DNA of 64,000 nt from Betaproteobacteria bacterium (GTDB lineage Bacteria; Pseudomonadota; Gammaproteobacteria; Burkholderiales; Burkholderiaceae_A). The stretch spans positions 1-64,000 of the forward strand of contig JAGWWC010000003.1 in assembly GCA_018970545.1 (NCBI GenBank), in the 5' to 3' direction. Each line of letters starts with the position of its first letter. Positions within the stretch are counted from its first letter, which is position 1. Positions 8,358 to 61,707 of the stretch are shown here, piece after piece. The notes beneath the pieces were generated by a model that was not told the DNA's origin, did not search any database, and saw only the letters and a program-made list of their open reading frames with translations. A program made the translations under genes and the position numbers.

Positions 8358-10075
8358 TAACGCACCATCGGTAGCTTTAGGCCAAATCTGTTGGCCGTCT
8401 GGATCGCCAAGTCATATCCCGCATCCGCATGACGCATTACCCCAGAGCCGCAGTCGTTGACCAGCACGCGGGCCAGCCGCTCCGCGGCTGCATCGCTTCC
8501 ATCGGCCACAATCACCATGCCCGAATGCTGTGAGTAGCCCATTCCGACACCGCCGCCATGGTGCAGGCTCACCCAGCTCGCACCGCCCGCGGTGTTGAGC
8601 AACGCGTTCAGCAGCGGCCAGTCACTCACTGCGTCTGTGCCATCTTTCATGTCTTCCGTTTCGCGATTTGGACTCGCTACTGAGCCGGTATCCAAATGAT
8701 CACGGCCAATCACGATCGGTGCTTTTAGCTCGCCCTTTTTCACCATCTCGTTAAATGCCAGCCCGGCCACATGCCGCTCGCCCAGGCCCAGCCAACAAAT
8801 CCGTGCAGGCAGGCCCTGGAAGCGAATGCGCTCGCGCGCCATCTCTAGCCATCGGTGGGTGTGCTTATTCTGCGGAAATAGCTCCTTGATTTTGGCATCG
8901 GTCCTATAAATATCTTCGGGATCTCCCGAGAGTGCCACCCAACGAAACGGTCCCTTACCCTCGCAGAACATCGGCCGAATGTAAGCCGGCACAAATCCAG
9001 GGAAATCGAACGCGTTCTTCACTCCTGCATCGAGGGCCACCTGTCGAATGTTGTTGCCATAGTCTACGGTGGGTATCCCCATGGCGTGAAACTCAAGTAA
9101 TGCGCGCACATGGATCGCACAGCTCTGCGCTGCGGCCGACTGTAAGGCAGCATGCTGAGAAGGATCACTCTGAGCTGCTCGCCACTGGGGAATCGTCCAG
9201 CCGGCCGGCAAATACCCGTTGATCAGGTCATGGGCTGATGTCTGATCGGTCACGATATCGGGCCGGATGCCACCGGCCTTGGCCCGCCGGACAAGCTCCG
9301 GCAATAGCTCCGCAGCGTTTCCCAATAATGCGATCGAGACCGGCTCCTTCAAGGCGGTGTGGTGCTGAATCAACGCAAGGGCGTCATCCACATCCTTTGC
9401 CTGCTTATCAACATAACGAGTGCGAAGCCGGAAGTCGATACTGGCTTGTTGACACTCAATATTGAGCGAGCAGGCCCCCGCCAACGTCGCCGCCAAGGGC
9501 TGTGCACCCCCCATGCCGCCAAGGCCGGCTGTGAGAATCCACTTGCCTGAAAGATCATTGTTGAAGTGCTGGCGACCAGCCTCAACAAAGGTCTCGAATG
9601 TTCCTTGCACGATGCCCTGACTGCCAATGTAAATCCAACTTCCCGCCGTCATCTGCCCGTACATGAACAGGCCCTTGCGATCGAGTTCGCTGAAGTGCTC
9701 CCAGTTGGCCCATTTGGGAACAAGATTGGAATTTGCCAGCAGCACTCGCGGAGCGTTCGGGTGGGTTTTGAATACACCCACAGGCTTACCCGACTGAATC
9801 AATAAAGATTCGTCCTCGTTCAGATCTCGCAGGGATGCGAGGATCTGGTCGAAACATTCCCAATTCCGGGCAGCCCGGCCAATACCGCCATACACCACCA
9901 GATGCTGAGGATGCTCGGCAACCTCTGGATCAAGATTGTTTTGAATCATGCGGTAGGCCGCCTCGGTGACCCAACTCTTGCAGTTCAGTTGCGGGCCACG
10001 GGGCGCACGTATCACCCGGCTAGTGTCAAGCCGAGGATCAATTTCTTTTTCAAAAATTGCGTCGTTCACGTTCAT
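8357..10075 (-). CDS. hutU: Urocanate hydratase
   Basis: 572 aa; [70 protein letters not shown]. Confidence 0.97.
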
Positions 10076-10110
10076 GTTTTGCTCCGGTTCTTAACAAAAT
10101 AAGGATCCAC

Positions 10111-11625
10111 TTACACCACAGAAGGCAAATCAAGTCCCCGGATCAGCTGCCCGCTACGCACCATCCCAAGAGCGGCCTGAAGATCAGGATAAATGTAGCG
10201 ATCATCGGTCAGCCGAGGAATACGGGCTCGAAGACAGGTCCGCACTGCCTCAAGCATTGGGCTTGAAGTGAGCGGAGCATGAAAGTCACAGCCCTGCGCG
10301 GCACATAGCCACTCGATCGCAATAATGTTGAGCGCATTGTCCACCATCGGTCGGAGCCTTCGGCTAGCGTGGGCCGCCATCGAAACATGGTCCTCTTGAT
10401 TTGCCGATGTCGGTATTGAGTCAACACTCGCGGGAGAGGCTCGTTGTTTATTTTCCGACACCAGTGCGGCAGCCGTTACCTGCGCGATCATGAAGCCTGA
10501 GTTCAGTCCCGGCTGAGGGGTGAGGAAGGCCGGAAGCCCCGATAACGCTGGATCCATCAGCATCGCGATACGACGCTCGGCCAGCGAACCGATTTCACAG
10601 ATGGCCATCGCAATCATGTCAGCCGCAAAGGCCACTGGCTCCGCATGAAAATTACCTCCCGACAAGGCCACTCCTTCCTGCTCGACGCCAAAGATGAGTG
10701 GGTTATCCGAGACGCTATTGGCCTCGGTTTCTAGAGTGGATGCGGCAAACTGCAGCAGGTCAAGACACGCCCCCATCACCTGCGGCTGGCAACGAAGGCA
10801 ATAGGGATCTTGCACACGCTCATCACCCCTGAGATGCGATGATCGAATGACGCTGCCTGCCAGCAATTGCCGCAAGGCCTGCGCCGTCACCATCTGGCCC
10901 CTGTGCCTTCTCAGCGCATGAATTCGTGGATCAAACGGCGCATCAGAACCCTTGGCGGCATCGGTCGATAAGGCACCTGTCACAAGAGCAGACCGAAACA
11001 AAACATCCGCATCGAAGAGCGCTGCCAGCGCATGGGCGGTTGAGAATTGGGTGCCATTCAAGAGCGCCAATCCCTCTTTGGGGCCGAGCGTCACCGGCTG
11101 CAGCCCAACACGCTTTAGCGCCTGCACCGCGGGCAGGCGCCCATCGGGCGTATCGGCTTCCCCCACTCCAATCATGACGGCTGTCATGTGGGCCAGAGGT
11201 GCCAAATCGCCGGATGCCCCCACCGAGCCTTGAGCTGGCACTACGGGAATAATGTCTCGAGTCAGCATCGCTTCCAGCAGATCCATGGTGGCCAGGCGAA
11301 TTCCCGAGGCTCCCTGAGCCAAGCTGACAAGTTTTAAAGCCATCATCAGCCGCGTCACTTGGGGTGCCGTGCTGTCACCTACACCGGCTGCATGCGAGAG
11401 CACAATGTTGCGCTGGAGGCATTCCAAGTCCTCGGTCGCGATGCGCACGCTGGATAACTTTCCAAATCCGGTGTTCACCCCATAAATGGGGTCTCCGGCA
11501 GCCACCATGCGCTCAACGGTGGCTGCACTCGAGCGCACCCCCTCCCGGCAGGCAGGATCGAGCACTGGCATGGCGCCGTGATAAATCTCTCGCCACTGGG
11601 CCAACGTTACAGAACCCGGAGTCAC
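10111..11625 (-). CDS. hutH: Histidine ammonia-lyase
   Basis: [30 protein letters not shown] (MIO-forming ASG), [16 protein letters not shown]. Confidence 0.97.
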
Positions 11626-37848: not shown

Positions 37849-38868
37849 TTAGTGGTTCACCAAGAAGGGCTTGAGTAGAATTTTTGCTGAGCCGGAGCGG
37901 CCATGATGTAGATCTGAGAATGCTGCCGGACCCTCCTCAAGGGGCCTGCGATCCACCCAGCCGCAGGCGCCGAAAACTCCACGATCCAAATATCGAACGG
38001 TATTCTGTAGGTCGACCGTCGTATACGTGTAGGTTCCAAGCAGTGTGATCTCAGCCAGGGTGAGCTTACGCATATCAATGTCACTGGCCCATTCCTGAAG
38101 CCCCACATGCATGATGACACCACCGGGTCGGATAGCCTGAAACGCGGTGGATCGCGTGATCGCAGAGCCAACACAATCCACTACCAATTCGTAATGATTT
38201 TCGCCACAGCTTTCCGCCGTGGGATCAATCACCTTGCACCGAGTTTCTTCGGCCAGGACCTGTCTTCTCAATGGATTGACTTCGATGACATCGAGCTCAA
38301 GAACACCGAAATGCTTCAGTAAAAGTGCCGTAAACATTCCGATCGCCCCACCGCCGATCACCAGCACCCGACATTCCTGCACTGGCCGACGCAGTGCTCG
38401 CACCGATAGATCAATTGCGTGGACTGCTGTGGCAGCAGGCTCGGTCAAAGCGGCGGTATCCGAGTCCATTGTTTCTGGAATGGCGATCAGCGACAAGGCC
38501 GGAATACTCATGTACTCAGCAAAAGCGCCCGGCCGTGTCATCCCCACCATGGTCCGATTGGCACACAGATTATTACGGCCCTGTTGACAGTACTCACAGC
38601 GTCCACAAGTAATCAAGGGGTTCCCCGTCACCCGCGCGCCTTTGTCAAAAAGCGACGACCGGCTCTGCACGACGGTCCCTGCAAACTCGTGCCCAAGAAT
38701 CAGGCCAGGCTTTCGGCGCGGATCATGGCCATGATAAGCATGCATATCGCTGCCACAGATGCCCACCGCATCAATTCGAAGAATGACTTCATCCGACTCC
38801 AGGATTGGCTCCGGATGCTGCTGGATACGAACTTCATTGGGCTGTGTATACACCAACGCTTTCATCAT
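37849..38868 (-). CDS. Zinc-dependent alcohol dehydrogenase (candidate DHPS 2-dehydrogenase partner of HpsN)
   Basis: GICGSDMHAYHGHDPRRKPGLILGHEFAGTV; CGRCEYCQQGRNNLC structural Zn; in hpsN operon. Confidence 0.9.
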   Translation of the reverse strand: MMKALVYTQPNEVRIQQHPEPILESDEVILRIDAVGICGSDMHAYHGHDPRRKPGLILGHEFAGTVVQSRSSLFDKGARVTGNPLITCGRCEYCQQGRNNLCANRTMVGMTRPGAFAEYMSIPALSLIAIPETMDSDTAALTEPAATAVHAIDLSVRALRRPVQECRVLVIGGGAIGMFTALLLKHFGVLELDVIEVNPLRRQVLAEETRCKVIDPTAESCGENHYELVVDCVGSAITRSTAFQAIRPGGVIMHVGLQEWASDIDMRKLTLAEITLLGTYTYTTVDLQNTVRYLDRGVFGACGWVDRRPLEEGPAAFSDLHHGRSGSAKILLKPFLVNH

Positions 38869-38887
38869 GCTTTCCTTCTCGCTTGGT

Positions 38888-40971
<2,084 letters not shown>

Positions 40972-44510: not shown

Positions 44511-44532
44511 CTAGGTCATATATATGACCTAG
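44511..44532. promoter_or_regulatory. Operator: perfect 22-bp palindrome CTAGGTCATATATATGACCTAG
   Basis: Exact self-complementarity; in divergent promoter region; 24-nt inverted copy at 45801. Confidence 0.85.
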
Positions 44533-44631: not shown

Positions 44632-45774
44632 ATGTCGCAGATCATCTATCTGAATCAGGTCCATATTGAATTTGGTGCCCTGAGCCACCTGCAAAACAGT
44701 TGCGTACAACACAAAATTGACCATGCGCTGATCGTGACCGATCCCGGTATCAAGGCAGTCGGGATACTGGACAAGGTACTCCTTCAGTGCGCCGCAGCAG
44801 GACTTAAGGTTTCAGTTTTTGATCAGACACCCTCAAATCCGACTGAACGGGCCGTGCATGCTGCCCGCGCGATTTATGTTGAACAAGGCTGTAACGGCCT
44901 GATTGCTCTTGGCGGCGGCAGCGCCTTGGATTGCGCCAAAGGGGTCGCGATCGCCGTACATCATCCCGGACCCTTAAAGACCTATGCGACCATCGAAGGA
45001 GGCTCCACAAAAATTACTGCCAACTTACCGCCGCTCATCGCGATCCCCACAACGGCGGGCACCGGCAGTGAGGTCGCCCGCGGGGCCATCATCATTGTTG
45101 AAGACGGCCGAAAGCTTGGATTTCACAACTGGCACCTGGTGCCGAAAACCGCCCTGCTGGACCCGGAACTCACCCTTGATTTGCCCCCAAAACTCACCGC
45201 TGCAACCGGCATGGATGCCATCACCCACTGCATGGAAACTTTTATCTCAGCAGCTTTCAATCCACCGGCAGACGGCATCGCCTTAGACGGCTTAAGCCGA
45301 GGCTGGAGTTGCATCGAACGGGCGGTACGCGATGGAAAAGACCGCGAGGCACGGCTCAATATGATGAGCGCGAGCATGCAAGGTGCGATGGCATTTCAAA
45401 AGGGATTGGGTTGCGTTCACTCGCTGAGCCACAGCCTGGGCGGCATCGATCCGCGGCTGCATCATGGCACGCTGAACGCAATCTTTTTGCCAGCAGTGCT
45501 GACGTTTAATCGTGAAGCGGAATCGGTCAAACGAGAATCGCGGATGCAACGCATGGCTGCCGTGATGGGGCTTGAAAATGCCAATGACATTCCGCTGGCG
45601 GTCAAGGAGTTGAATGCGCGAATCGGACTGCCCAGTGGACTGGCGGCCCTCGGTGTAAAGGCAAACCAGTTCCCCGACATCATCCGCGGCGCGATGGCGG
45701 ACCACTGCCATCCCACCAACCCACGGCCCGCTACCGCCGCCGACTACGAATCCCTGCTGGCGGCCTCGCTCTAA
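44632..45774 (+). CDS. Iron-containing (group III) alcohol dehydrogenase
   Basis: LIALGGGSALDCAKGVAIA, IPTTAGTGSEVARGAII, GCVHSLSHSLGGIDPRLHHGTLNAIFLPAVLTFN. Confidence 0.94.
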   Translation: MSQIIYLNQVHIEFGALSHLQNSCVQHKIDHALIVTDPGIKAVGILDKVLLQCAAAGLKVSVFDQTPSNPTERAVHAARAIYVEQGCNGLIALGGGSALDCAKGVAIAVHHPGPLKTYATIEGGSTKITANLPPLIAIPTTAGTGSEVARGAIIIVEDGRKLGFHNWHLVPKTALLDPELTLDLPPKLTAATGMDAITHCMETFISAAFNPPADGIALDGLSRGWSCIERAVRDGKDREARLNMMSASMQGAMAFQKGLGCVHSLSHSLGGIDPRLHHGTLNAIFLPAVLTFNREAESVKRESRMQRMAAVMGLENANDIPLAVKELNARIGLPSGLAALGVKANQFPDIIRGAMADHCHPTNPRPATAADYESLLAASL

Positions 45775-45800: not shown

Positions 45801-45824
45801 GTCATATATATGACCTAGTTGACA
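45801..45824. promoter_or_regulatory. Operator copy GTCATATATATGACCTAGTTGACA upstream of suyAB
   Basis: Exact reverse complement of 44505-44528; contains GTCATATATATGAC palindrome. Confidence 0.85.
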
Positions 45825-45876: not shown

Positions 45877-46158
45877 ATGATTCACGTTGTATTGCATGAC
45901 GCAAAAGACACGGTCGCCGTTGCAGTGGTGGAAGGCATTAAGCCCGGCGTGGAACTGAACGCCTGGATCATGGACGAGGATCGCACTGTCACGGTGAAAG
46001 CCATCCAGGAGATCCCCATCGGCCACAAGGTAGCCCTCAAGGACATGTCTGTGGGAGATACGGTCTTTAAGTACGGCATTGATATCGGCAAGGTGGTGGC
46101 CCCCATCAAAGCCGGAGAGCATGCCCACGTTCACAACATCAAGACCAAGCGCTGGTAA
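45877..46158 (+). CDS. suyA: (2R)-3-sulfolactate sulfo-lyase small subunit (UxaA/SAF family)
   Basis: 93 aa SAF-domain protein [48 protein letters not shown]; paired with suyB. Confidence 0.85.
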
Positions 46159-46184: not shown

Positions 46185-47360
46185 ATGTCGGTTGTTTCAA
46201 AAAATACTACGTTCTGGGGCTATCGCCGCGATAACAAGCGTGTCGGTGTCCGCAATCACGTCATCATCCTTCCACTTGATGATCTCTCCAATGCTGCCGC
46301 AGAGGCCGTTGCAGTGGCCATCAAGGGCACCATGGCGATCCCCCATCCTTACGGACGCCTTCAATTTGGCCCGGACCTGGATCTCCACTTTCAGACACTG
46401 ATTGGCACCGGCTGCAACCCAAATGTTGCCGCGGTGGTGGTGATCGGCATTGAGGATGGCTGGACCAAGCGCGTTGTTGACGGAATCGCAGCGACTGGAA
46501 AGCCGGTTGTGGGATTTGGCATCGAGGGCCACGGCGATCACAACACCATCATGCGGGCCTCAAAAGCAGCGAAGGAATTTGTTCAGTACGCCACCGGGTT
46601 ACACCGGGTTGAGTGCCCGATCCAGGAGCTCTGGGTCTCCACCAAATGTGGTGAATCGGACACCACCTCAGGCTGCGGCGCCAATCCCACAGTGGGCAAT
46701 GCCTTCGATAAATTACATCCGCTGGGCACCACCCTGGTCTTCGGCGAGACCTCAGAACTCACCGGGGGCGAGGCAATCGTGGCCGCCCGATGCGCCAATG
46801 ACAAAGTCAGAGAACGGTTCATGTTCATGTTCAATCGCTACCAGGACATGATCAATCGCTGGAAGACCACGGATCTCTCCGAGTCGCAGCCCACCAAGGG
46901 CAACATCGCGGGCGGCCTGACCACCATTGAAGAAAAAGCGCTTGGCAATATTCAGAAAATCGGCAAGAAATGTACGGTGGACGGAGTTCTGGACAAGGCG
47001 GAAATCCCATCGCATGCCGGCCTCTGGTTTATGGACTCTTCCTCGGCGGCCGCTGAGATGGTCACACTTTGTGCCGCCTCGGGCTATGTGGTGCATTTCT
47101 TTCCCACTGGCCAGGGCAATGTCATCGGTAACCCCATTCTTCCCGTGATCAAGCTTTGCGCGAACCCGCGGACGGTGCGGCTCATGTCCGAGCATATTGA
47201 CGTGGATTGCTCGGGCCTCTTACAGCGCGAGATGACACTCGATCAAACGGGCGACAAGCTATTGGAGTGCATGATGGCCACCGCCAATGGCCGCTGGACC
47301 GCTGCCGAGGCGCTCGGCCATCGAGAATTCGTGCTCACCCGGATCCACGAATCTGCATGA
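46185..47360 (+). CDS. suyB: (2R)-3-sulfolactate sulfo-lyase large subunit (UxaA family)
   Basis: [34 protein letters not shown]...[39 protein letters not shown]; strongly SuyB-like as recalled; next to sulfite exporter. Confidence 0.86.
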
Positions 47361-47378: not shown

Positions 47379-47408
47379 AAAAAGGGTCAGCGTGCTGACC
47401 CTTTTTTT
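47379..47408 (+). terminator. Rho-independent terminator after suyB overlapping the tauE start
   Basis: AAAAAGGGTCAG-CGTG-CTGACCC TTTTTTT hairpin with 7-T tract. Confidence 0.85.
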
Positions 47409-48147
47409 AACGGCTTGTTTTGTTTTTCTTGGATATCTGACTTACGGCCTAACTGGGTTTGGTGCCTCAATCGTGGCACTGCCATTGATCGTGCAATTCG
47501 TACCACTAAAAATTGCCGTCGCGCTGATGCTGGCGATGGATCTAGTAGCCGGTTTTCTTTTTGGCCTCAAAAACCGAAAAGACATTCAATTTCGAGAGGC
47601 CAGGCCGTTAATCATCTGGATGATGCTCGGCATGACACTGGGCGTGACCCTGCTGGTCAAGGCACCGGAGCCGCTGCTACTGGTGGTGCTCGGATTGTTT
47701 GCGGTGATGCAGAGTTTTCGGGGGCTGAGAACCCTATCGGCCCAATTCATTCCGATCGCTGACCACTGGCGGATGTTTTACGGAACCATCGGTGGCGTCT
47801 TCTCTTCGCTCTTTGGCACCGGTGGCCCCCTCTACATTATTTATATTGCGCGACGACTGGCCTCTGAAGCGAGTCAGAGGGCGACGGTTGCATTTTTGAT
47901 TTTTGTGGCAACACTCGGTCGGCTCGTGCTGTTTGTCATCGCCGGGCTCGTTTTTGATCCAAAGCTTGGGCCTTATCTGATGGTGTGCCTGCCGGTCAGT
48001 CTGCTGGGGGTGTACACCGGAAGCCAACTGCGACGTCGACTGCAGCTCAAACACCTTCGCCAGCTGGTCTGGCTGATTGTCGGCCTGGCGGGGATCTCTC
48101 TTTTGGTACGAAATCTCCCGAAACTCCCGGCACTCTGGGCCCTCTAA
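47392..48147 (+). CDS. TauE/SafE family sulfite exporter
   Basis: LTACFVFLGYLTYGLTGFGASIVALPLIVQFVPLKIAVALMLAMDLVAG; GTG start inside the terminator. Confidence 0.88.
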   Translation: MLTLFLTACFVFLGYLTYGLTGFGASIVALPLIVQFVPLKIAVALMLAMDLVAGFLFGLKNRKDIQFREARPLIIWMMLGMTLGVTLLVKAPEPLLLVVLGLFAVMQSFRGLRTLSAQFIPIADHWRMFYGTIGGVFSSLFGTGGPLYIIYIARRLASEASQRATVAFLIFVATLGRLVLFVIAGLVFDPKLGPYLMVCLPVSLLGVYTGSQLRRRLQLKHLRQLVWLIVGLAGISLLVRNLPKLPALWAL

Positions 48148-48198: not shown

Positions 48199-49926
48199 CT
48201 ATGCCGCGGCGGGCTCAGCCTGAAGAATAGTCTCGCCGGGTTTCACGCGTGTAAATTGCACCGGGGTCCACTGAAGATCAAGATGGTCGTCCCGTGCACG
48301 AACGGTGGTGAAGGCAGACTGCTCCAAATGTCGAGTTTCAGGAAAGTCCTCCCGGTAATGAGCGCCCCGTGAATCCTCACGCGCTAAGGCGGCGGTAGCA
48401 ATCACACGGCTGACATCAATCAGATTTCGCAAGTTAAGCCAGTCATGCCAAGACAGGTTAAAGGCGCGATCCGATTGCGCAAGCCCCACGGAATGCAATC
48501 CTTGCGCCAGCATCTGAAGCTCGGTCTGGGCCTGCTGCAGATCTGTGCTGGAGCGAAGAATTCCGACCCGCTCCCACATCGTGGCGTAAAGCCGCTCACG
48601 AATTTCTTCCAAGCCTTTGCCTTGCTGTTGAAAAGGCCGCTCGTGCTGCGCAACGCTCTGTGCGATCGCCTGCTCATCTGCAGGAACAAACTTTTGCTGC
48701 TGCTGGATCCATCGGGCCATACTCTCTCCGGCGATACCACCAAAGACCGTAGAGTTGGCAACGCCGTTTCCTCCGAGCCGGTTCGCACCATGAACACCGC
48801 CGGTATCTTCGCCTGCGGCAAACAGGCCAGGAAGCTCAGTGCTGCAGTCTGGCGCAAAAACGACTCCTCCCATCATGTAGTGGGCAGTGGGTACCACCTC
48901 CACCAGGCCGCCTGCAAGATCAAAGCCACAGTCGGCACATCGCTCCACCATGCCTTTGAATGCCTTGCTGACATTTTCGGGGCCAAGATGTGACATCTGG
49001 ATGAATACGCCACCGTTGGGGGATGCACGGCCGGCGCGCATCTCTGAATAGATTGATCGGGATACGATATCGCGCGTAGCACGCTCACCACGCGGATCAT
49101 AGTGATGCATGAACCGCTCCCGTTGGCCGTTTAACAGATAGCCGCCCGCGCCGCGTAAGCCCTCTTCGATGACGGTACCCGTCATGCGTGTGCCACTTCC
49201 GGCGAGCAACCCCGTCGGATGAAACTGCACCATCTCCATATCACGCAACGCTAGGCCAGCCCGCAATGCCATTGCCAGACCATCACAGCTTTTGTCGCCC
49301 GAGGGGGTGTGATAGCGATACATCGTCGGGCCGCCTCCGGTTGCCAGCAAGACGGCCTTGGCGCGAACAAAAACAAACTCGCCATCGCGCATATCGATCA
49401 TCAGGACTCCGGCCAGCTGCTGGCCATCTGCAGTCTTAATGAATTCGATGGCGCGATGCTCCTCCAGGCGTTGAATATTGCGGGCCCAGACCTGCTCGGC
49501 AAGCCGATTGATAATCTCAATGCCGGTCAGATCGCCTTTGTGAACCGTACGATCAAACGTCTGGCCAGCGAACGCTTTTTGATGAATCGTGCCATCCGGA
49601 TTGCGATCAAAAAAACAGCCCAGCTCGTTTTCGAGCTCGTGAATGCGCTCCACCGCCTTGGTGACCAGCGTCCAGGCCAACTCTTGATCAGCAAGCCATT
49701 TACTGCCTTCGATGGTGTCCATGAAATGGCGTTCCACCGAATCCCCTTCGGCCAGGGCCACGTTATAACCCCCCTGGACCATTCGGGTGCAGCCACATTT
49801 ACCCAGCAGCCCTTTCACTGCCACTGTGATCGAGGCCTGCGGGGCAAGTTGATGCGCGTGCAGCGCCGCAAACAGTCCGGCGCCACCAGCGCCCAGAATC
49901 AAGATATCCGTGGACTGAGTCCTCAT
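48199..49926 (-). CDS. Succinate dehydrogenase/fumarate reductase-like flavoprotein subunit
   Basis: ILGAGGAGLFAALHAHQ; MVQGGYNVA; FHPTGLLAGSGTRMTGTVIEEGLRG; RATRDIVSRS; PTAHYMMGGV; EDTGGVHGANRLGGN. Confidence 0.93.
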   Translation of the reverse strand: MRTQSTDILILGAGGAGLFAALHAHQLAPQASITVAVKGLLGKCGCTRMVQGGYNVALAEGDSVERHFMDTIEGSKWLADQELAWTLVTKAVERIHELENELGCFFDRNPDGTIHQKAFAGQTFDRTVHKGDLTGIEIINRLAEQVWARNIQRLEEHRAIEFIKTADGQQLAGVLMIDMRDGEFVFVRAKAVLLATGGGPTMYRYHTPSGDKSCDGLAMALRAGLALRDMEMVQFHPTGLLAGSGTRMTGTVIEEGLRGAGGYLLNGQRERFMHHYDPRGERATRDIVSRSIYSEMRAGRASPNGGVFIQMSHLGPENVSKAFKGMVERCADCGFDLAGGLVEVVPTAHYMMGGVVFAPDCSTELPGLFAAGEDTGGVHGANRLGGNGVANSTVFGGIAGESMARWIQQQQKFVPADEQAIAQSVAQHERPFQQQGKGLEEIRERLYATMWERVGILRSSTDLQQAQTELQMLAQGLHSVGLAQSDRAFNLSWHDWLNLRNLIDVSRVIATAALAREDSRGAHYREDFPETRHLEQSAFTTVRARDDHLDLQWTPVQFTRVKPGETILQAEPAAA

Positions 49927-50534
49927 CGGCCCACCCCGAGCTCTGCCAGCACCTTATCGCGCTGGGCTGCGGTATGAGCGCGAACCGTGTCGTAGAGGCT
50001 ACCGCCGTGGCTGTCCATACCCACCAGCAAGGGCCCAAACTGCCGAATCCGAAAACGCCATAGCGATTCAGGATTCAGGTCGTCCATATCGACATCCTCA
50101 ATCTGCTCGATCCAGGTCGTCTCCAGGGCGGCTGTTCCGCCAATGATCGCTAGATACGCGCCCCCCAGCTCGCCAAAGGCGGCCTTTGAGTCTTCGCGCA
50201 TTCCCCCCTTGCCCACAATCAGCCGCACACCATATTGCGTCATGAGTGGCCGTGTAAACCGCTCCATCCGATCAGAAGTCGTGGTACCCACGCATACCGC
50301 CGCATAGCCCGCCGGATACTGTGCGCTCACCGGCACCTTCTTGACATTCGGCGCAGTGTGAATCACCGCATGCCCCCGCAGATCAAATTTGGTTTTGCGT
50401 CCACGATCAAAAAGGTGAATCTGTGTCGCATCTCGAATACCAAATAGCGTCTGCTCAAGCGTGACCGTGTCGTTGATGCGAAGCTGCCGAACTTGCGCTT
50501 CGGTAACTGGCATCTGAAAGGTGTGGTGGGCCAT
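49923..50534 (-). CDS. Class I fumarase / tartrate dehydratase-type beta subunit
   Basis: TPNVKKV...YPAGYAAVCVGTTTSDRMERFTRPLMTQYGVRLIVGKGGM; starts 11 bp after alpha subunit stop. Confidence 0.9.
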   Translation of the reverse strand: MAHHTFQMPVTEAQVRQLRINDTVTLEQTLFGIRDATQIHLFDRGRKTKFDLRGHAVIHTAPNVKKVPVSAQYPAGYAAVCVGTTTSDRMERFTRPLMTQYGVRLIVGKGGMREDSKAAFGELGGAYLAIIGGTAALETTWIEQIEDVDMDDLNPESLWRFRIRQFGPLLVGMDSHGGSLYDTVRAHTAAQRDKVLAELGVGR

Positions 50535-50544
50535 GGATTCTTTT

Positions 50545-51423
50545 TCAATAACCGTAATGAATGCCGTCGGCCGAGAATTGCGCCGATGCACGACGGGCCG
50601 AATGACACTGCATATTGACGGCGACCGGATTCATGGTGATGTGGGTTGCAGCCATCTCCACGTGAACAGCAAACGCCGTGCCGTCGCCGCCAAGGCCCTG
50701 GGGCCCGATGCCCAAGTGATTGACGGCACTGGTGAGTTCGCGCTCCAAAGCAGCGCCCTCCGCGTCGGCACAGACCGAGCCCAGGGCGCGGGTGGCCGCT
50801 TTTTTTGCCAGCGCCACACACAGATCGCTGGTTCCTCCGACACCAACACCCACAATGGTCGGCGGACAGGTCTTGCCGCCCGAGGCAATGACCGAATCAA
50901 TCACAAAGGTTTTGACCGCGGCAAGGCCCTCAGCCGGAATCGCCATGCGCAAATATGAATTGTTTTCTGATCCGCTGCCTTTGGGCACCATCTCAAGCCG
51001 CACATATTCCCGCGTATCAACAAAATCGAAATGAATCACGGGCACTTCGATGCCGCAAGAGGTGTGTTCGTTTTTTCGGGTGATTGGATGCACGACCGAA
51101 GACCTGAGCGGATATTCTCGCGTGGCGCGCTCACATCCCTTTCGTATCGCTGACTTGACTGCTGCCCCGTCGAACACTACATCACGCCCGATCCAGACGT
51201 TGTAGATGGGAATGCCGGTATCTTGGCAGAGCAGATTGTCAGTCTCTTCGGCGACCGAGATATTCCTGATCATGGTCGACAAAATGCCCTTCGCAGTTCC
51301 ATTGGTCTCGCGATCTGACAGGGCCTGAAATCCGGACTTGATGTCCGGCGGCAGCGCCTTCAGGGCGCGGATATAAAGCTCTTTGGCAGCCTCTTCAATT
51401 AAATTCGGCGAGAGTTGAAACAT
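50545..51423 (-). CDS. Class I fumarase / tartrate dehydratase-type alpha subunit
   Basis: LLCQDTGIPIYNVWIG; GGKTCPPTIVGVGVGGTSDLC; start ATG 51423 in TGATG overlap. Confidence 0.92.
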   Translation of the reverse strand: MFQLSPNLIEEAAKELYIRALKALPPDIKSGFQALSDRETNGTAKGILSTMIRNISVAEETDNLLCQDTGIPIYNVWIGRDVVFDGAAVKSAIRKGCERATREYPLRSSVVHPITRKNEHTSCGIEVPVIHFDFVDTREYVRLEMVPKGSGSENNSYLRMAIPAEGLAAVKTFVIDSVIASGGKTCPPTIVGVGVGGTSDLCVALAKKAATRALGSVCADAEGAALERELTSAVNHLGIGPQGLGGDGTAFAVHVEMAATHITMNPVAVNMQCHSARRASAQFSADGIHYGY

Positions 51424-51767
51424 CAGTTCACCAAGCTGTAGAGAAATAAAAATCCTGTGACCCCAGAGGTGATCACGGTTGCCGTAATCCAGCCCGACCG
51501 CACGCCCCGCCAAGGGCCAAACTCGATCAGCAGCAGTCGGGCACCGCCCACAAGATGCAATGTCAGCAGCACGACCAGTCCCCACTCGGCAAATTTCACG
51601 ATCAGGGAATCGGTGAGCCGCAGGGCCCGATCCAATTCAGACTCCCCGCGGATCGCCTGCGCGAGCACAAAAAAATGCAGCGGCAAAAAGATCGCCAGCC
51701 CCAGGCCAGAGAGCCGATGCATCAGAAACGCTGTGTAAGACAGCGGGCGGGGCCGCAACGACTTCAT
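51423..51767 (-). CDS. Succinate dehydrogenase-like membrane anchor / cytochrome b subunit
   Basis: RPRPLSYTAFLMHRLSGLGLAIFLPLHFFVLAQAI; HxxGGARLLLIEF; ATGA overlap with preceding gene. Confidence 0.85.
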   Translation of the reverse strand: MKSLRPRPLSYTAFLMHRLSGLGLAIFLPLHFFVLAQAIRGESELDRALRLTDSLIVKFAEWGLVVLLTLHLVGGARLLLIEFGPWRGVRSGWITATVITSGVTGFLFLYSLVN

Positions 51768-52111
51768 GAGGCAGTCACCGCCCAAACCGCGGTCAGGCCC
51801 AGCACCAGAATCAGTGCGGCAAACCCCCGTGTCAGCAGCTGCGCAGTGGATGGCTGCATCCCGCCCCATTCTTCAGCGATTTTCTGCAGGCCCAGGGGCA
51901 CGTGAATGACACAGGCCAGCACAAACACTGCGTAGAACAGACCCAATCCAATATTGCCCTGCGTACGGCCAAGAATCTCTGCAGCGGTCAGGCCGCCACG
52001 CATGGCGTACAGAATCAAGCCAAGGTGAATGAACACGAAGACCATCAACACCATGGCGCTGATGCGCTGCCAGTACCAGGCGCGGGCCTGTGCGATTGCC
52101 GTTGATGCCAT
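51764..52111 (-). CDS. Succinate dehydrogenase-like membrane anchor subunit
   Basis: WYWQRISAMVLMVFVFIHLGLILYAMRGG; three predicted TM segments. Confidence 0.83.
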   Translation of the reverse strand: MASTAIAQARAWYWQRISAMVLMVFVFIHLGLILYAMRGGLTAAEILGRTQGNIGLGLFYAVFVLACVIHVPLGLQKIAEEWGGMQPSTAQLLTRGFAALILVLGLTAVWAVTAS

Positions 52112-52112
52112 C

Positions 52113-52880
52113 TCAGAGCGCCCCCTTGGCGGCCAGCCGGCCCACCTTCTTTTTCAGTCCTGCAATGCCTGCGGTTGGCGAAATGCGCTTCGGGCAGCGC
52201 TCAGTGCACGAGAAGTGGCTATGGCAGGCATGGCAGCCCGCATCTCCTGCGACTGCCCGCAGCCGCTCGAGCTGTTGAGTGTCGCGCTCGTCATTGGCCA
52301 GCGTCCAGGCACGGTTTAATGCGGCAGGCCCAAGGTAATCGGGGCGCCATGCGACAACATCACAGGAGCTGTAGCAAACGCCGCAGCCGATGCATTCAAT
52401 TCCTGCATCAACCGCACGCCGCTGGGCCGATTCAGGCTTCACTCTCGCGAAATCATCTTGGCGTGTTGCGTCACCCTTAAACTGGCCTTTCGCACGGGCC
52501 CACTTATCAAAAAACTCAGTCATATCAGTGACCAGATCTTTGATGATCGGAAGGTTGGCCAGAGGCGCGATCTCCAGCTCAGCAGATTCGTCGATGACTT
52601 TGCTCACGTGGGTACGACAGGTCCAGCGGGCCTGGCCATTGACCCGCATTGCACATGATCCACACATCCCCACTCGGCAAGCAAATCGATAGCTCAATGT
52701 TGGATCGAGCGATCGCTGGATATATGTCACAACATCCAGAATCGTTTGGCTCGCAGCCCTCGGCACCTCGTAGCGTTGAAATCCGCCGGCTGCAGCACCG
52801 CGCCAGATGCGCACTGAAATCAGCGGTGAATTATTCAACGACATCTCGGTGGACATATTCGTGATGGTGGGTATTGACAT
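52113..52880 (-). CDS. Succinate dehydrogenase/fumarate reductase-like iron-sulfur subunit
   Basis: CRVGMCGSC [2Fe-2S]; CIGCGVCYSSC and CHSHFSCTERCP clusters. Confidence 0.93.
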   Translation of the reverse strand: MSIPTITNMSTEMSLNNSPLISVRIWRGAAAGGFQRYEVPRAASQTILDVVTYIQRSLDPTLSYRFACRVGMCGSCAMRVNGQARWTCRTHVSKVIDESAELEIAPLANLPIIKDLVTDMTEFFDKWARAKGQFKGDATRQDDFARVKPESAQRRAVDAGIECIGCGVCYSSCDVVAWRPDYLGPAALNRAWTLANDERDTQQLERLRAVAGDAGCHACHSHFSCTERCPKRISPTAGIAGLKKKVGRLAAKGAL

Positions 52881-53571
52881 GGGAGATTCGCCACTCGACC
52901 GGCTGCCGATTAAACGTCAAGGCAATCCTGCGAATTTCCAACACGGGATCGCCCACCTTCAGACCGAGTAGCTTTCCCGTGGCTGCATTGACGCTTGCCG
53001 CGCGGACACGCTCATCGATACGGAGAACATTGACCGAAAAAGCATCCAAATACAGCCGGTACAGCGTATTCGGCCGATCGCGAACCAACTCCTCCGTCAT
53101 GCCCTTAAACCGTCGGGCTGCCAAGGTGATGGTATCCACGATCACCGGCCGGCCCTGCATGGAGAGCAGATTCTTGATTCTGATGACGTCGCTATGCACC
53201 GGAATTGCAAGCTTTTCTGCGGCAGTTCGGTCTGCCTTTGCAAAGCCAAACTGAAGCAACGAGATCTCAGGATAGCTGCGGGGGCCATCGTGGGGGCTGA
53301 TGTTGAAGAATTGAAAAAACTGACGGGGCCTGCTGTGACTCGCCACAAACGTGCCCAAGCCCTGGCGTCGCACCAACAGATGATCGGCCACCAGCGCATC
53401 AATGGCCTTGCGCAGGGTGCCAATTGAGACACCAAACCGATCGCAGAGCCGCTTCTCTGAGGGAATGGCCTCATCCGGCCGCCACTCCCCCCGCTCCAAT
53501 GCCTCCAACATCTGGCGCTGAACCGATTCATAAAGGGGCATCTCAGCCGCCAACGCATCCCAACCGTTCAT
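52831..53571 (-). CDS. GntR family transcriptional regulator (HutC/UTRA subfamily)
   Basis: LYESVQRQMLEALERGEWRPDEAIPSEKRLCDRFGVSIGTLRKAIDALVADHLLVRRQGLGTFV. Confidence 0.93.
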   Translation of the reverse strand: MNGWDALAAEMPLYESVQRQMLEALERGEWRPDEAIPSEKRLCDRFGVSIGTLRKAIDALVADHLLVRRQGLGTFVASHSRPRQFFQFFNISPHDGPRSYPEISLLQFGFAKADRTAAEKLAIPVHSDVIRIKNLLSMQGRPVIVDTITLAARRFKGMTEELVRDRPNTLYRLYLDAFSVNVLRIDERVRAASVNAATGKLLGLKVGDPVLEIRRIALTFNRQPVEWRISHVNTHHHEYVHRDVVE

Positions 53572-53603
53572 GGCCCCATCGTACCCAAACCCGCCAAGAG
53601 ATA

Positions 53604-53621
53604 CAACTCATATAGTTGACT
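53604..53621. promoter_or_regulatory. Operator-like CAACTCATATAGTTG overlapping -35 of slcC promoter
   Basis: Imperfect palindrome in gntR/slcC divergent region; TAGTTGAC shared with operators at 44511 and 45801. Confidence 0.55.
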
Positions 53622-53644
53622 GGCGGGACCGGGACCCGTAGCAT
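53616..53644 (+). promoter_or_regulatory. Promoter TTGACT-N17-TAGCAT for slcC operon
   Basis: -35 53616-53621, -10 53639-53644; same layout as the two other sulfonate promoters. Confidence 0.6.
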
Positions 53645-53679
53645 GATCCGATCAGGCCCTGTGCGGCGCGGAGCAGTCG

Positions 53680-54627
53680 ATGGCATCAGTCGTGATTACC
53701 GAATTTATGGACGCCCCAGCAGTTGCGGCCCTGTCCGCCCAACTGACGGTCACCTATGATCCCGGCCTCGTCGATCAGCCGGAGCGGCTGCGGGCCCTGC
53801 TCGTCTCGGCGGACGCCCTGATCGTGCGCAATCGCACCCAGGTCAACCGCGAACTGCTGGCATCGGCACCACAACTGCGGGCGGTCGGACGACTCGGTGT
53901 CGGGCTGGACAATATTGACGTGCCAGCCTGTGCAGAGCGGAGCATCACCGTCATTCCTGCGACCGGCGCCAATGCACAGGCAGTGGCCGAATACGTGCTG
54001 GCCACCACCCTCATGCTGATTCGTGGTGCTTACCAAACCACCGCCGCAGTCGCCAACGGCCAGTGGCCGAGGGCAGCGTTTTCCAATGGCCATGAGCTGC
54101 ACGGCAAAGTCATGGGGCTCGTTGGCTTTGGCACGATTGGGCGACGGGTCAGTGACCTGGTAAAGCCCTTTGGTATGCAGATCATGGCGTTTGATCCCGC
54201 ACTGCCTGCCGAACACGAGGCCTATCGGCTGCATCAGGTCGCCTGTTGCCCGGACCTGGAGCTGCTGCTGAGCAAGGCAGATGTTGTCAGCCTGCATGTG
54301 CCATTGACGCCATCAACGCGGCATTTATTCAACGCAAAACGGCTGGCACAGATGAAGCCCAACGCCGTATTGATCAATACGGCACGCGGCGGCATTGTGG
54401 ACGAGCGCGCCTTGATCGACGCGCTGCGCGAGGAGCAGCTCGCAGGCGCGGCGCTCGATGTCTTTGATCATGAGCCCCCGCTGGCGGGTCAGTTGCCTGC
54501 CGATCACCCCCGACTGATTCTGACGCCCCATATCGCCGGGCTGACGCAGGAATCCAATACACGCGTCTCCACGATGATTGCCGAACGAATTGCCGCCTTC
54601 TTCATCAACGCTACCCCGCCCGCATGA
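53680..54627 (+). CDS. slcC: D-isomer-specific 2-hydroxyacid dehydrogenase, candidate (S)-sulfolactate dehydrogenase
   Basis: GRLGVGLDNIDVPAC, GLVGFGTIGRRVSDLVKPFGMQIMAFDP, NTARGGIVDERALIDAL; paired with ComC-type gene. Confidence 0.8.
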   Translation: MASVVITEFMDAPAVAALSAQLTVTYDPGLVDQPERLRALLVSADALIVRNRTQVNRELLASAPQLRAVGRLGVGLDNIDVPACAERSITVIPATGANAQAVAEYVLATTLMLIRGAYQTTAAVANGQWPRAAFSNGHELHGKVMGLVGFGTIGRRVSDLVKPFGMQIMAFDPALPAEHEAYRLHQVACCPDLELLLSKADVVSLHVPLTPSTRHLFNAKRLAQMKPNAVLINTARGGIVDERALIDALREEQLAGAALDVFDHEPPLAGQLPADHPRLILTPHIAGLTQESNTRVSTMIAERIAAFFINATPPA

Positions 54628-55640
54628 GAGTTTCCATCGAAGAAGTCCGCCGCCTGTGCGCAAACGCATTCAGAGCTCACGGGGTGGCCCCCCATCAGGC
54701 CGAGCCCACGATTGATGCCTTGCTGCTCGCCGAGTCCCAAGGACTTGTCTCTCATGGACTCTCCCGTGTGCCGATGTATCTCGCCCATGTGCGGCACCAC
54801 CGTGTGGATGCAACAGCAGCACCCAAAATCAGAAAACGTTCTCCATCGGCCGTGCTCGTCGATGCGGGCAACGGTTTTGCTTTTCCTGCCTGCGCGACCG
54901 CGATCACTGCAGCAATCGAACAGGCCCACCAGACTGGAATCTCGATTGCCGCAGTCACCAACAGTCATCACTTTGGGGTTGCAGGCAATCATCTGCTCAA
55001 GATCGCAGAGGCGGAAATGGTCGGCTGGGCCATGGGAAACTCGCCTGCCGCCATGCCCGCCTGGGGCGGAAAACGCGCAATTTTCGGCACCAATCCGATC
55101 GCTGCGATTTTCCCTCGCCGTCAGACGGATCCTTTACTGATTGACTTGTCGTTGTCCGAAGTCGCGCGCGGCAAGATCATGGTTGCCGCAAAGGCAGGCA
55201 AGCCCATCCCAGAGGGCTGGGCTCTCGATGCCGCAGGTAATCCCACCACCGATGCGAAAGCCGCGTTGATGGGCATGATGCTGCCGATGGGGGGTGTGAA
55301 AGGAGCAATGCTCGCACTGATGGTGGAGTTGATGGTGACCGCGCTCACCGGCGCCCACTTTGGTGCCGAAGCGGATTCTTTTTTCGTCGACGATGGAAAC
55401 CGGCCCCAACTCGGACAAGTCTTTCTCGCCATTGATCCACGGGCGCTCGCCGGTGATGAAACGTATCACGCTCGATTTGCGGATTTGACCACCGCAATGC
55501 TGTCTGATCCTGAGGTTCGGCTGCCCGGTTCACGACGATTCGACCTCGCTCGGCAGGCTGCCAGAGATGGCTTGGAATGCTCAGAAGAGTGGATGGCGCA
55601 GGTTCGTGCGCTCGGCGAAGGCTCAGGCCAATCGTCATGA
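54624..55640 (+). CDS. comC: Ldh2/malate-lactate dehydrogenase family, candidate (R)-sulfolactate dehydrogenase
   Basis: SHGLSRVPMYLAHVR, TNSHHFGVAGNHLLKIAEAEMVGWAMGNSPAAMPAWGGKRAIFGTNPIA; ATGA overlap with slcC. Confidence 0.8.
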   Translation: MRVSIEEVRRLCANAFRAHGVAPHQAEPTIDALLLAESQGLVSHGLSRVPMYLAHVRHHRVDATAAPKIRKRSPSAVLVDAGNGFAFPACATAITAAIEQAHQTGISIAAVTNSHHFGVAGNHLLKIAEAEMVGWAMGNSPAAMPAWGGKRAIFGTNPIAAIFPRRQTDPLLIDLSLSEVARGKIMVAAKAGKPIPEGWALDAAGNPTTDAKAALMGMMLPMGGVKGAMLALMVELMVTALTGAHFGAEADSFFVDDGNRPQLGQVFLAIDPRALAGDETYHARFADLTTAMLSDPEVRLPGSRRFDLARQAARDGLECSEEWMAQVRALGEGSGQSS

Positions 55641-56452
55641 ATGTGGAGCATTGGCTGCCCGATATCTGCGAACTCGCCACGCAGGCCTCCCAGCTGGCGT
55701 TACAACGGTTTCGTGAAGGATCACGCCACATCGAAAAGGGGCCCGGCGACTGGGCCAGTGAGGCCGATCTTGAGGTTGAAGAGTTAATTCGCAGAGGATT
55801 GCATCACATTGCTCCCGGCACTCTGGTGCACGGCGAAGAGACTGGGCCGGTGGGTGCGAGCGCCAGCCGATTCATCTGGCACGTGGACCCCATTGATGGC
55901 AGTGCGAATTTTTTACGAGGAATACCGCATTTCGCGACCGTGCTCTCTCTGTCAGGGATTGATGAAGCGGGCCAAGAGCATATTCTGATGGGGGTGACAT
56001 CCGACCCCTGCCGCAGGGAATTATTTGTGGCCTCAGCCGCTCAGGCCACCACGCTCAATGGCGCTGATGTTCGCGTTTCAAATGTTTCTCAGGGGCTAAA
56101 AGCCTTGCTCGCAGTCGTTACGCCAAAGCCCAACAGCGCGCACGTCGATCATTTTGAAGCGTGGTTTTCTCGCCAACTGCGGTCCTTCGGAGGAGTGCGG
56201 CGCAGCGGTGCGATGGCCCTTGATCTGGCCTGGGTCGCCTGTGGGAGGCTCGATGCTTTCGGCGGTATTGATCTTGCGCCTTGGGATATTCGTGCCGGCC
56301 TGCTGCAGGTGATGCAATCGGGCGGCGTCGTTGAATCGAACACCCCGATTAGGTCATTCCCTAACCAGCCACCAACGCAGATGTGTTTAGTGGCAAATTC
56401 CGATTCACTCATCAAGCTTTTAATAGGAGACAACAATGGCCAATCAAACTAA
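55637..56452 (+). CDS. Inositol monophosphatase-family phosphatase
   Basis: VHGEETGPVG, WHVDPIDGSANFLRGIPHFATVLSL, APWDIRAGLLQVMQSGGVV; start ATG 55637 overlaps comC stop. Confidence 0.88.
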   Translation: MNVEHWLPDICELATQASQLALQRFREGSRHIEKGPGDWASEADLEVEELIRRGLHHIAPGTLVHGEETGPVGASASRFIWHVDPIDGSANFLRGIPHFATVLSLSGIDEAGQEHILMGVTSDPCRRELFVASAAQATTLNGADVRVSNVSQGLKALLAVVTPKPNSAHVDHFEAWFSRQLRSFGGVRRSGAMALDLAWVACGRLDAFGGIDLAPWDIRAGLLQVMQSGGVVESNTPIRSFPNQPPTQMCLVANSDSLIKLLIGDNNGQSN

Positions 56453-57440
56453 ACGGCACGCGAACCGATTTCTACTCGCAGCCCTGATGGGGTGCGTGAC
56501 CTTGGGCCTGACCGCCTATACGGCCCCTGCAAACGCACAGGCCTTTCCCAATAAGCCCGTGAGACTCATTGTTCCGTTTGTCGCCGGTGGCGCCACCGAC
56601 ATCGTGGCTCGGCTCGTCGCCCAAAAATTATCAGCCGCCTGGGGCCAGCCGGTTGTGGTTGAAAACCGTGGTGGTGCAGGCGGAAACATCGGGGCCGACG
56701 CGGTCGCGAAATCTCCTGCCGATGGCTACACGATTCTGGTGACCTCCGGGAGCATCGTGACGGTGAATCCCCACATGTACGCCAAGATGCCCTTTGATGC
56801 GAAAAAAGATCTCGCACCGATTACGAATCTTGCCAGCGGTCCCCAGGTCCTTGTGGTCCATCCGGCTGTGCCTGCGAAAAACGTCAAAGAATTGGTTGCA
56901 CTTGCAAAGAGCAAGCCCGGTCAATTGAATTTCGGCTCTGCTGGAATCGGTAGCCAGGTGCATATGGCAGGAGAAGCATTCGTCTATGCGGCTGGCATCG
57001 AGGCCCAACACATTCCTTATAAGGGTGAGGCTGTCGCGTTTACTGACCTGGCAGGCGGCCAGGTGCAATTCATGGTGGGCAATATCGCTGGCGCGACGGG
57101 CCATATTCAGTCGGGCCGAATTCGTGCGCTTGGTGTCACCAGCGCAAAACGCTCGCCACAGCTGCCTGATGTTCCCACCGTCGCGGAGGCGGGCCTTCCC
57201 GGCTTTGAAAATACGGGATGGTTCGGATTCATGGCGCCCGCGGGTACTCCCAAACCCATTATTGACAAGATCCATGCCGACACGGTGAAAGTCTTGACTG
57301 ACCAGGAGGTCAAAGATCGTCTCACCCAGCTGGGCATGGCACCCGTGGGGAACTCACCGGCGGACTTCGGCAAGGAAATCGCGGTGGAATATGAACGCTG
57401 GGGTAAGGTGGTATCGGCCCGAAAACTAACGGCCAATTAA
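56436..57440 (+). CDS. Tripartite tricarboxylate transporter (Bug/TctC) substrate-binding protein (SlcH-like position)
   Basis: FPNKPVRLIVPFVAGGATDIVARLVAQKLSAAWGQPVVVENRGGAGGNIGADAVAKSPADGYTIL. Confidence 0.92.
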   Translation: MANQTKRHANRFLLAALMGCVTLGLTAYTAPANAQAFPNKPVRLIVPFVAGGATDIVARLVAQKLSAAWGQPVVVENRGGAGGNIGADAVAKSPADGYTILVTSGSIVTVNPHMYAKMPFDAKKDLAPITNLASGPQVLVVHPAVPAKNVKELVALAKSKPGQLNFGSAGIGSQVHMAGEAFVYAAGIEAQHIPYKGEAVAFTDLAGGQVQFMVGNIAGATGHIQSGRIRALGVTSAKRSPQLPDVPTVAEAGLPGFENTGWFGFMAPAGTPKPIIDKIHADTVKVLTDQEVKDRLTQLGMAPVGNSPADFGKEIAVEYERWGKVVSARKLTAN

Positions 57441-60372: not shown

Positions 60373-61707
60373 GTGGGCCACTCGGATCCAGTGATCAATG
60401 TAGAAGCTCGGCAGAACTTTTGGATGCCGTTTTCTCCGAATAAAGAATTCAAAGCCGAGCCTCGGATGTTTGTTCGCGGCGAAGGCATGTACCTCTATAA
60501 GCCCAACGGCGACAAAGTCATTGACGCCTCGGCGGGATTATTTTGCGTTGCGGCAGGGCACTGCCGACCCGAAATCGCACAGGCGGTATTTGAGCAGCTC
60601 AGTACGCTCGATTACACGATGCCATTCACCCGGGCCCACCCAAAGGCCTTTGAGCTCGCGGAACAGATCGCAAGCTACACGCCCGCAGACCTGAACCGGA
60701 TTTTCTTTTGTTGCTCTGGATCGGAGTCCGTTGACTCTGCGATGAAAATTGCTTTGGCGTATCACCGCGTGCGGGGCCAGGGTCACCGTCAATTGTTTGT
60801 CTCGCGTGAACGCGCCTACCATGGCGTGAACATGGGCGGTGTCGCCCTGTCGGGCATGGTGAATAACCGCCGAGCCTTTGGCCCTGGGATGGCGGGCGTT
60901 TATCACATGCGCCATACAGCGCTACCGGAGAATAAATTTGTGCGCGGCCAGCCCGAGAAAGGCGCCGAATTGGCCGAGGATCTTCTGCGGATTTGCAATC
61001 TGGTAGGTGGTGAAAATATCGCTGCAGTGTTTGTAGAGCCGGCCGCCGGATCATTTGGCTGCCTGCCGCCTCCACAAGGCTACTTAAATCGCCTCCGTGA
61101 AATCTGCGACCAGCAGGGCATCCTTCTGGTGTTTGATGAAGTGATCACGGGATGGGGCCGCATGGGCGCGGCCTTTGGTGCTCAAAAGTTTGGTGTGAAT
61201 CCCGACATTCTCACCATGGCCAAGGCAGTCACCAATGCCTCGCAGCCACTCGGAGCGGTTGCCGTTCGGCAGGACGTGTACGACACCATCACCAACTCGG
61301 GACCGGAAAAAGGCATTGAGTTCTTTCATGGCTACACCTATTCCGCCCACCCTGCGAGCTGCGCGGCTGGCCTGGCCATGATGGACATCTTCAGGAAAGA
61401 GCAACTGATTGAGCGGGCAGCGGCCATGTCAGATTACTTCCTGGATGGAATCTTCTCGCTCAAGGATATTCCCGGCCTTGTCGATATTCGCGGCGTTGGC
61501 ATGATGGCAGCGATCGAACTGGCACCCGGGGCTACGCCCGGTGCTCGCGGCCACGAAGCTCAGAAGGCCCTCTACGATGCGAATCTGAATCTCAAGGCCA
61601 CTGGAGACTCCATCATCTTTGGCCCTCCGTTTATTGCAGAAAAGCATCACATCGACGAAATCATCAACAAGACCCGCTCAGTGCTGACAGCAATGTCGAA
61701 AAAGTAA
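60373..61707 (+). CDS. Class III omega-amino acid:pyruvate aminotransferase (beta-alanine/taurine type)
   Basis: FWMPFSPNKEFKAEPRMFVRGEGMYLYKPNGDKVIDASAGLFCVAAGH; LLVFDEVITGWGRMGAAFGAQKFGVNPDILTMAKAVTNA (PLP Lys); GTG start. Confidence 0.9.
   Translation: MGHSDPVINVEARQNFWMPFSPNKEFKAEPRMFVRGEGMYLYKPNGDKVIDASAGLFCVAAGHCRPEIAQAVFEQLSTLDYTMPFTRAHPKAFELAEQIASYTPADLNRIFFCCSGSESVDSAMKIALAYHRVRGQGHRQLFVSRERAYHGVNMGGVALSGMVNNRRAFGPGMAGVYHMRHTALPENKFVRGQPEKGAELAEDLLRICNLVGGENIAAVFVEPAAGSFGCLPPPQGYLNRLREICDQQGILLVFDEVITGWGRMGAAFGAQKFGVNPDILTMAKAVTNASQPLGAVAVRQDVYDTITNSGPEKGIEFFHGYTYSAHPASCAAGLAMMDIFRKEQLIERAAAMSDYFLDGIFSLKDIPGLVDIRGVGMMAAIELAPGATPGARGHEAQKALYDANLNLKATGDSIIFGPPFIAEKHHIDEIINKTRSVLTAMSKK

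Follow-up and report, generated by a model that had tools for sequence, protein, structure and literature searches.

The window analysed here, 64,000 nucleotides of contig JAGWWC010000003.1 from a Betaproteobacteria bacterium (assembly GCA_018970545.1), encodes a complex II-like enzyme and a fumarase-like hydratase that form a pair apparently dedicated to sulfonates. Their genes share one operon (hereafter the SDH-fum operon; SDH, succinate dehydrogenase) next to the genes for sulfolactate cleavage, and its probable function, drawn by analogy with the Krebs cycle, is the route from 3-sulfopropionate through sulfoacrylate and (R)-sulfolactate to pyruvate and sulfite. Such a sequence of steps had been suggested by an earlier sequence-only reading of the window, and it now gains support from gene neighbourhoods, a common operator and family-specific active-site changes, all of which point to a dedicated sulfonate role. 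Sulfopropionate carbon would probably become usable, and its sulfur be released, via a second, altered pair of Krebs-cycle enzymes, a clear example of how complex II and fumarase can be remodelled jointly to act on sulfonate analogues.

Genes were called by NCBIfam and Pfam profile searches of the window proteins, bit scores being compared with curated cut-offs, and every gene named in the sequence-only reading was found where that reading had placed it. The minus-strand operon is headed by a GntR/UTRA regulator (52831..53571), followed by an SDH-like iron-sulfur (Fe-S) subunit with 12 cysteines in Fe-S motifs (52113..52880), SdhD-like (51764..52111) and SdhC-like (51423..51767) membrane anchors of three predicted helices each, the alpha (50545..51423) and beta (49923..50534) subunits of a class I fumarase-type hydratase, and an SDH-like flavoprotein (48199..49926). 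Divergent from it, on the plus strand, are slcC (53680..54627), encoding an SlcC-like 2-hydroxyacid dehydrogenase that is a candidate (S)-sulfolactate dehydrogenase, and comC (54624..55640), the product of which is a candidate L-sulfolactate dehydrogenase (ComC-like at 218 bits, below the cut-off of 500). Convergent with the operon, also on the plus strand, are suyA (45877..46158) and suyB (46185..47360), for the small and large subunits of (R)-sulfolactate sulfo-lyase, and a gene for a TauE-family sulfite exporter (47392..48147). SuyA and SuyB are 85% and 91.8% identical to their counterparts in Cupriavidus pinatubonensis and orthologous to this pair, which lies in an annotated hpsN-hpsO cluster; the next homologue group is at most 40% identical. 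The gene calls thus confirm a GntR-headed operon with four SDH-like subunits and a two-subunit class I fumarase, divergent from slcC-comC and adjoining suyAB-tauE. An inositol-monophosphatase-family gene (55637-56452) lies directly 3' of comC.

A check of the host assembly (1.87 Mb, 118 contigs, 90.8% complete) for a housekeeping sdhCDAB was positive: a complete set resides on contig C84, its SdhA clearing the TIGR01816 cut-off of 727 with 960 bits, and a separate single-chain class I fumarase is encoded on contig C57, while for class II FumC the host genome gave a weak superfamily match only. The SDH-fum operon is therefore not the housekeeping set, and the possibility that it represents the sole sdh/fum genes of the genome was rejected.

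The flavoprotein falls under each of the listed curated cut-offs for SDH and fumarate reductase (FRD): its best raw match, TfrA, reaches 525 bits (cut-off 718), and the general SDH/FRD model TIGR01812 gives 456 bits (cut-off 567). When its family is aligned to Escherichia coli FrdA, whose residue numbers are used here, His232, Glu245, Arg287, His355 and Arg390 are seen to be kept. Every one of the 128 members has Gly-Cys in place of the His44 that links flavin adenine dinucleotide (FAD), GCTRM being the motif of the window protein; the catalytic Thr244 is Glu in all 106 of the 106 aligned members, with an EEG motif in 127/128, and the capping loop is longer by five residues. In a tree with FrdA and housekeeping SdhA the family forms one clade (support 0.997). 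Thr244 is known to support the transition state, and succinate oxidation requires covalent FAD, related enzymes with free FAD being capable of fumarate reduction and not of succinate oxidation (PMC10238741, PMC9557727). Since both replaced residues are important in succinate chemistry, the predicted protein has the architecture of complex II and yet is no ordinary succinate dehydrogenase; the complex as a whole retains four subunits, three cysteine groups in the Fe-S subunit and two three-helix anchors. The invariant Cys in place of His44 could carry the FAD. In the hydratase, the Fe-S ligand and substrate-binding motifs of class I fumarases (CQDTG, KGxGSE, R and H) are kept and the alpha subunit exceeds the NF004885 cut-off; the beta subunit is changed family-wide near the active-site motifs (ARDEAH to GIRDAT, GPTTS to GTTTS).

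A genome scan returned 80 loci, most of them with the cassette, beside which suyAB, slcC, comC and tauE recur; the arrangement of SDH-fum and sulfolactate genes is not due to chance, because it recurs in dozens of genomes. The altered enzymes are also present in further Proteobacteria, in an actinobacterium and in an archaeon. Where the flavoprotein is accompanied by the window's type of hydratase (variant A), 40 loci with full flanks could be used: suyAB was found within ~10 kb in 30 of them, and suyAB, slcC or comC in 32. Among genomes whose fetched stretch had no suyAB, 33/40 encode SuyB elsewhere. Of 369 genomes sampled evenly from the window's class, 9 had the flavoprotein, 13 had SuyB and 6 had both (p = 4e-8; p = 2e-5 with one genome per genus and the window's own genome excluded), and in Alphaproteobacteria, to which the Nisaea genome belongs, the corresponding figures were 32, 35 and 20 out of 386 (p = 3e-16), all of these p values correcting only partly for shared ancestry.

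Distant lineages show the same association. On pRHL1 of Rhodococcus jostii RHA1, a stretch of ~27 kb holds genes resembling fumAB, SDHA, SDHB and that for succinate-semialdehyde dehydrogenase (SSADH) together with suyAB, comC, slcC and the gene for a YeiH-type exporter. The locus of Haloarcula sp. GH36 encodes ComC, SuyB, SuyA, TauE, SDHA and SDHB, with an argininosuccinate-lyase-family gene (L102:10278-11780) in the fumarase position beside SDHA/SDHB; its product scores 323 bits to argH (cut-off 279.5) and 257 bits to XcbC, under the cut-off of the latter. In bacteria, XcbC takes part in the synthesis of coenzyme M via sulfoacrylate; our search of the coenzyme M literature found no description of sulfoacrylate. 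The Haloarcula protein may be a stand-in hydratase or, alternatively, an ordinary ArgH. In two marine Rhodospirillaceae loci (L085 and L088) the module lies near genes for Xsc (928 bits in L085) and phosphate acetyltransferase.

Other genes also recur around the module. An acetolactate-synthase-like thiamine-diphosphate enzyme of ~550 aa, distinct from Xsc, is encoded inside it at L066:2703-4355, L096:12684-14309 and ~20 further places, with 22 loci of the genome scan and 6 variant B loci (see below) carrying it. At 8 loci (cluster c20; for example L087:6015-7394, L045 and L066) the module is interrupted by a sulfatase-family gene, which lies between sdhC and the gene for a Bug-type binding protein, and genes for dicarboxylate- and tricarboxylate-type transporters recur nearby.

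A predicted operator links the window's transcription units. The perfect palindrome GTCATATATATGAC occurs between an ATP-binding cassette (ABC) operon and an iron-containing alcohol dehydrogenase (Fe-ADH) gene (44515..44528) and again upstream of suyA (45801..45814), and the variant CTCATATAGTTGAC lies in the divergent spacer between gntR and slcC (53607..53620). No further exact site of the core TCATATANNTGAC was found anywhere in the host genome, and the reversed control gave zero sites. In 2.43 Mb of related loci we found 17 sites with at most two mismatches, mostly at the start of suyA or slcC, while 40 control palindromes of the same composition gave a mean of 1.65 sites and a maximum of 7. 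Methylobacterium has one site 5' of suyA and another 5' of its sdhBDC-fumAB-sdhA operon. The SDH-fum operon, slcC-comC, suyAB-tauE and the Fe-ADH gene would accordingly belong to one regulon under this operator, and we infer from its position that the GntR protein of the operon is probably the regulator.

The proposed route starts from 3-sulfopropionate, the sulfonate counterpart of succinate, which a membrane-bound, quinone-linked complex II paralogue would oxidise to 3-sulfoacrylate. The class I fumarase-type hydratase would hydrate this to (R)-3-sulfolactate, the counterpart of L-malate. Cleavage of the sulfolactate by SuyAB would yield pyruvate and sulfite, and TauE would then export the sulfite. 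We infer the substrate, direction and stereochemistry of these steps, 3-sulfopropionate being the simplest substrate that would fit an SDH and a fumarase feeding SuyAB. Cahn-Ingold-Prelog priorities assign the (R) configuration to the sulfolactate that corresponds to L-malate. Since SuyAB is a (2R)-sulfolactate sulfo-lyase (PMC11489063), it could act on this product directly; SlcC and ComC would not be needed in the sulfopropionate branch and would serve to process (S)-sulfolactate of other origin. The supply of 3-sulfopropionate could come from import, or from 3-hydroxypropanesulfonate via the Fe-ADH (44632..45774, plus strand; 4-hydroxybutyrate dehydrogenase type, NF058672, 618 bits, cut-off 500) and an SSADH encoded on another contig (C71). 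The sulfonate counterpart of 4-hydroxybutyrate is 3-hydroxypropanesulfonate, and the Fe-ADH is a possible dehydrogenase for it. Although the Fe-ADH gene has the operator in the window, it does not recur as a neighbour at other loci and was rejected as a conserved module component.

The same flavoprotein family also occurs with a different class I hydratase, the alpha subunit of which is ~35% identical (variant B; loci L080, L086, L095, L098, L099, L100, L101 and L103 among others). Half of the alphaproteobacterial genomes with variant B encode SuyB somewhere; a general link to sulfonates was unsupported for the variant B class as a whole. Neighbours at some of these loci include TauE, YeiH, a sulfite oxidase, a NIPSNAP protein and either methylmalonate-semialdehyde dehydrogenase (MMSDH) or SSADH, a CoA-acylating MMSDH being encoded near variant B in Pseudomonas sp. 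MPC6 (L100) and Cupriavidus sp. P-10 (L103); desulfonation without SuyAB is possible in variant B loci. The earliest-branching pair in the flavoprotein tree consists of Rhodococcus and Haloarcula, each with suyAB, and variants A and B interleave above it. It would seem that the hydratase was exchanged while the flavoprotein stayed the same. A tentative extension, to which we give little more than speculative weight, would make the flavoprotein family a dedicated sulfonate branch of complex II, its FAD possibly Cys-linked, that passes sulfopropionate electrons straight to quinone, with the two hydratases opening two desulfonation routes: in variant A, sulfolactate would go to SuyAB, and in variant B, water would be added onto the sulfonate-bearing carbon, the bisulfite adduct collapsing, with no need of SuyAB, to malonate semialdehyde and sulfite.

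Besides the incomplete correction for shared ancestry, several observations weigh against the sulfopropionate route. With the FAD-linking His lost, the FAD potential would be lower if the FAD is not otherwise bound, and a free FAD would count against the oxidative direction. The window holds no aldehyde dehydrogenase for 3-sulfopropionate formation. Finally, suyAB is nearby in 1/30 variant B loci versus 45/71 of variant A, so the association of the flavoprotein with SuyAB is not exclusive.

The variant B loci, at which sulfonate neighbours are often missing, would suit an auxiliary Krebs-cycle module, in which a second SDH and fumarase act on succinate, fumarate and malate or close methyl analogues and are merely co-induced on C3 sulfonates. 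The fold and most catalytic residues are indeed those of SDH and class I fumarase, and an induced cluster has been read as Krebs-linked: Paracoccus wurundjeri grown on sulfofucose induced nine proteins of "fumarate and tartrate metabolism" together with a TauE homologue (cluster 3), for which the authors suggested a link to the Krebs cycle (PMC12421959). We nevertheless consider this explanation improbable, given the complete housekeeping set in the genome, the replacement of the catalytic Thr and the FAD-linking His almost without exception, and the suyAB linkage and common operator in distant lineages. Paracoccus versutus (L095) carries a variant B cassette with TauE that resembles the P. 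wurundjeri cluster as described, and the induced cluster may therefore be the same cassette. The module may also explain "Krebs-cycle" proteins induced in sulfonate-grown cells.

The module might also run in reverse as an electron sink, sulfolactate being dehydrated to sulfoacrylate and this reduced to 3-sulfopropionate, as the missing His for covalent FAD, the fumarate-reducing nature of related free-FAD enzymes and the best raw match to the fumarate reductase TfrA would allow. Polynucleobacter and Methylobacterium, both among the hosts, are aerobes, the invariant Cys could carry FAD in place of the His, and SuyAB, TauE and the sulfonate uptake genes point to catabolism and sulfite release, which leaves this direction very unlikely. 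Equally hard to credit is a larger succinate-like sulfonate such as sulfosuccinate as the true substrate: the capping-loop insert and the Thr-to-Glu change could suit a different ligand, and the recurrent dicarboxylate- and tricarboxylate-type transporter genes would be in keeping with it, but SDH and fumarase would then give no SuyAB substrate without further steps, none of which were found, and a literature search for a sulfosuccinate pathway of this kind returned nothing useful.

Returning to the sulfopropionate route, its genes lie in a region of the contig that is an island for C2 and C3 sulfonates. Genes for a zinc-dependent alcohol dehydrogenase, a short-chain dehydrogenase/reductase and a HisD-like protein (37849..40965, minus strand; Pfam matches only) are probably hpsPON for the oxidation of 2,3-dihydroxypropane-1-sulfonate (DHPS). 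Taurine-type ABC genes (tauABC) and an AptA-like transaminase gene (60373-61707) are on the same contig, and just past the window end (contig C48, ~63009-68768) genes for an acyl-CoA ligase, SauS (735 bits) and Xsc (1035 bits) continue the island with sulfoacetate and taurine degradation. Homotaurine, which the sequence-only reading had named as a precursor, is weakened by this context: the transaminase accompanies tauABC and is likelier to serve taurine, because xsc and sauS, which suit taurine and sulfoacetate, follow shortly beyond it. Positions 3676-11625 of the window hold genes for the use of histidine (hutF, hutI, hutU and hutH).

Anaerobic gut bacteria form 3-sulfopropionate from DHPS, and homotaurine is another source of the compound; a 2024 paper describes its bacterial degradation as unreported apart from one thesis (PMC11489063). 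According to the thesis as cited there, Roseovarius nubinhibens ISM degrades homotaurine via 3-sulfopropionate, sulfoacrylate and sulfolactate. The route is therefore not new, and this precedent for the intermediates also speaks for the sulfopropionate reading; our search of the open-access literature found no paper naming its enzymes. With a concrete and widespread gene set, 3-sulfopropionate degradation, a gap in the organosulfonate cycle, would become open to direct testing.

Compared with respiratory complex II (SdhCDAB/FrdABCD), the window complex shares the four subunits, the flavoprotein fold, the Fe-S cysteine groups, the three-helix anchors and five catalytic residues; it differs in the two substitutions at His44 and Thr244, the five-residue capping-loop insert, scores below the curated SDH/FRD cut-offs and linkage to sulfonate genes. 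The hydratase resembles two-subunit class I (Fe-S) fumarases in CQDTG, KGxGSE and further class I motifs, and departs from them in the altered beta subunit and in sharing an operon with SDH-like genes. The SlcC-ComC-SuyAB pathway of Chromohalobacter, Paracoccus and Cupriavidus has SuyAB, SlcC, ComC and TauE in common with the window and likewise converts sulfolactate to pyruvate and sulfite, but its known version is without an SDH/fumarase module, through which an entry for 3-sulfopropionate would here be gained. With the R. nubinhibens route the likeness is one of intermediates, the enzymes being unnamed in the citing paper (PMC11489063). Lastly, the HpfG-HpfD-HpfX-HpfYZ pathway of Enterococcus gilvus likewise recruits succinate-type enzymes for C3-sulfonate analogues, and its HpfD, acting on 3-hydroxypropanesulfonate, belongs to the same Pfam family as the window Fe-ADH (PF00465; PMC11489063); there, however, 3-sulfopropionate is the end product, whereas the window module would consume it.

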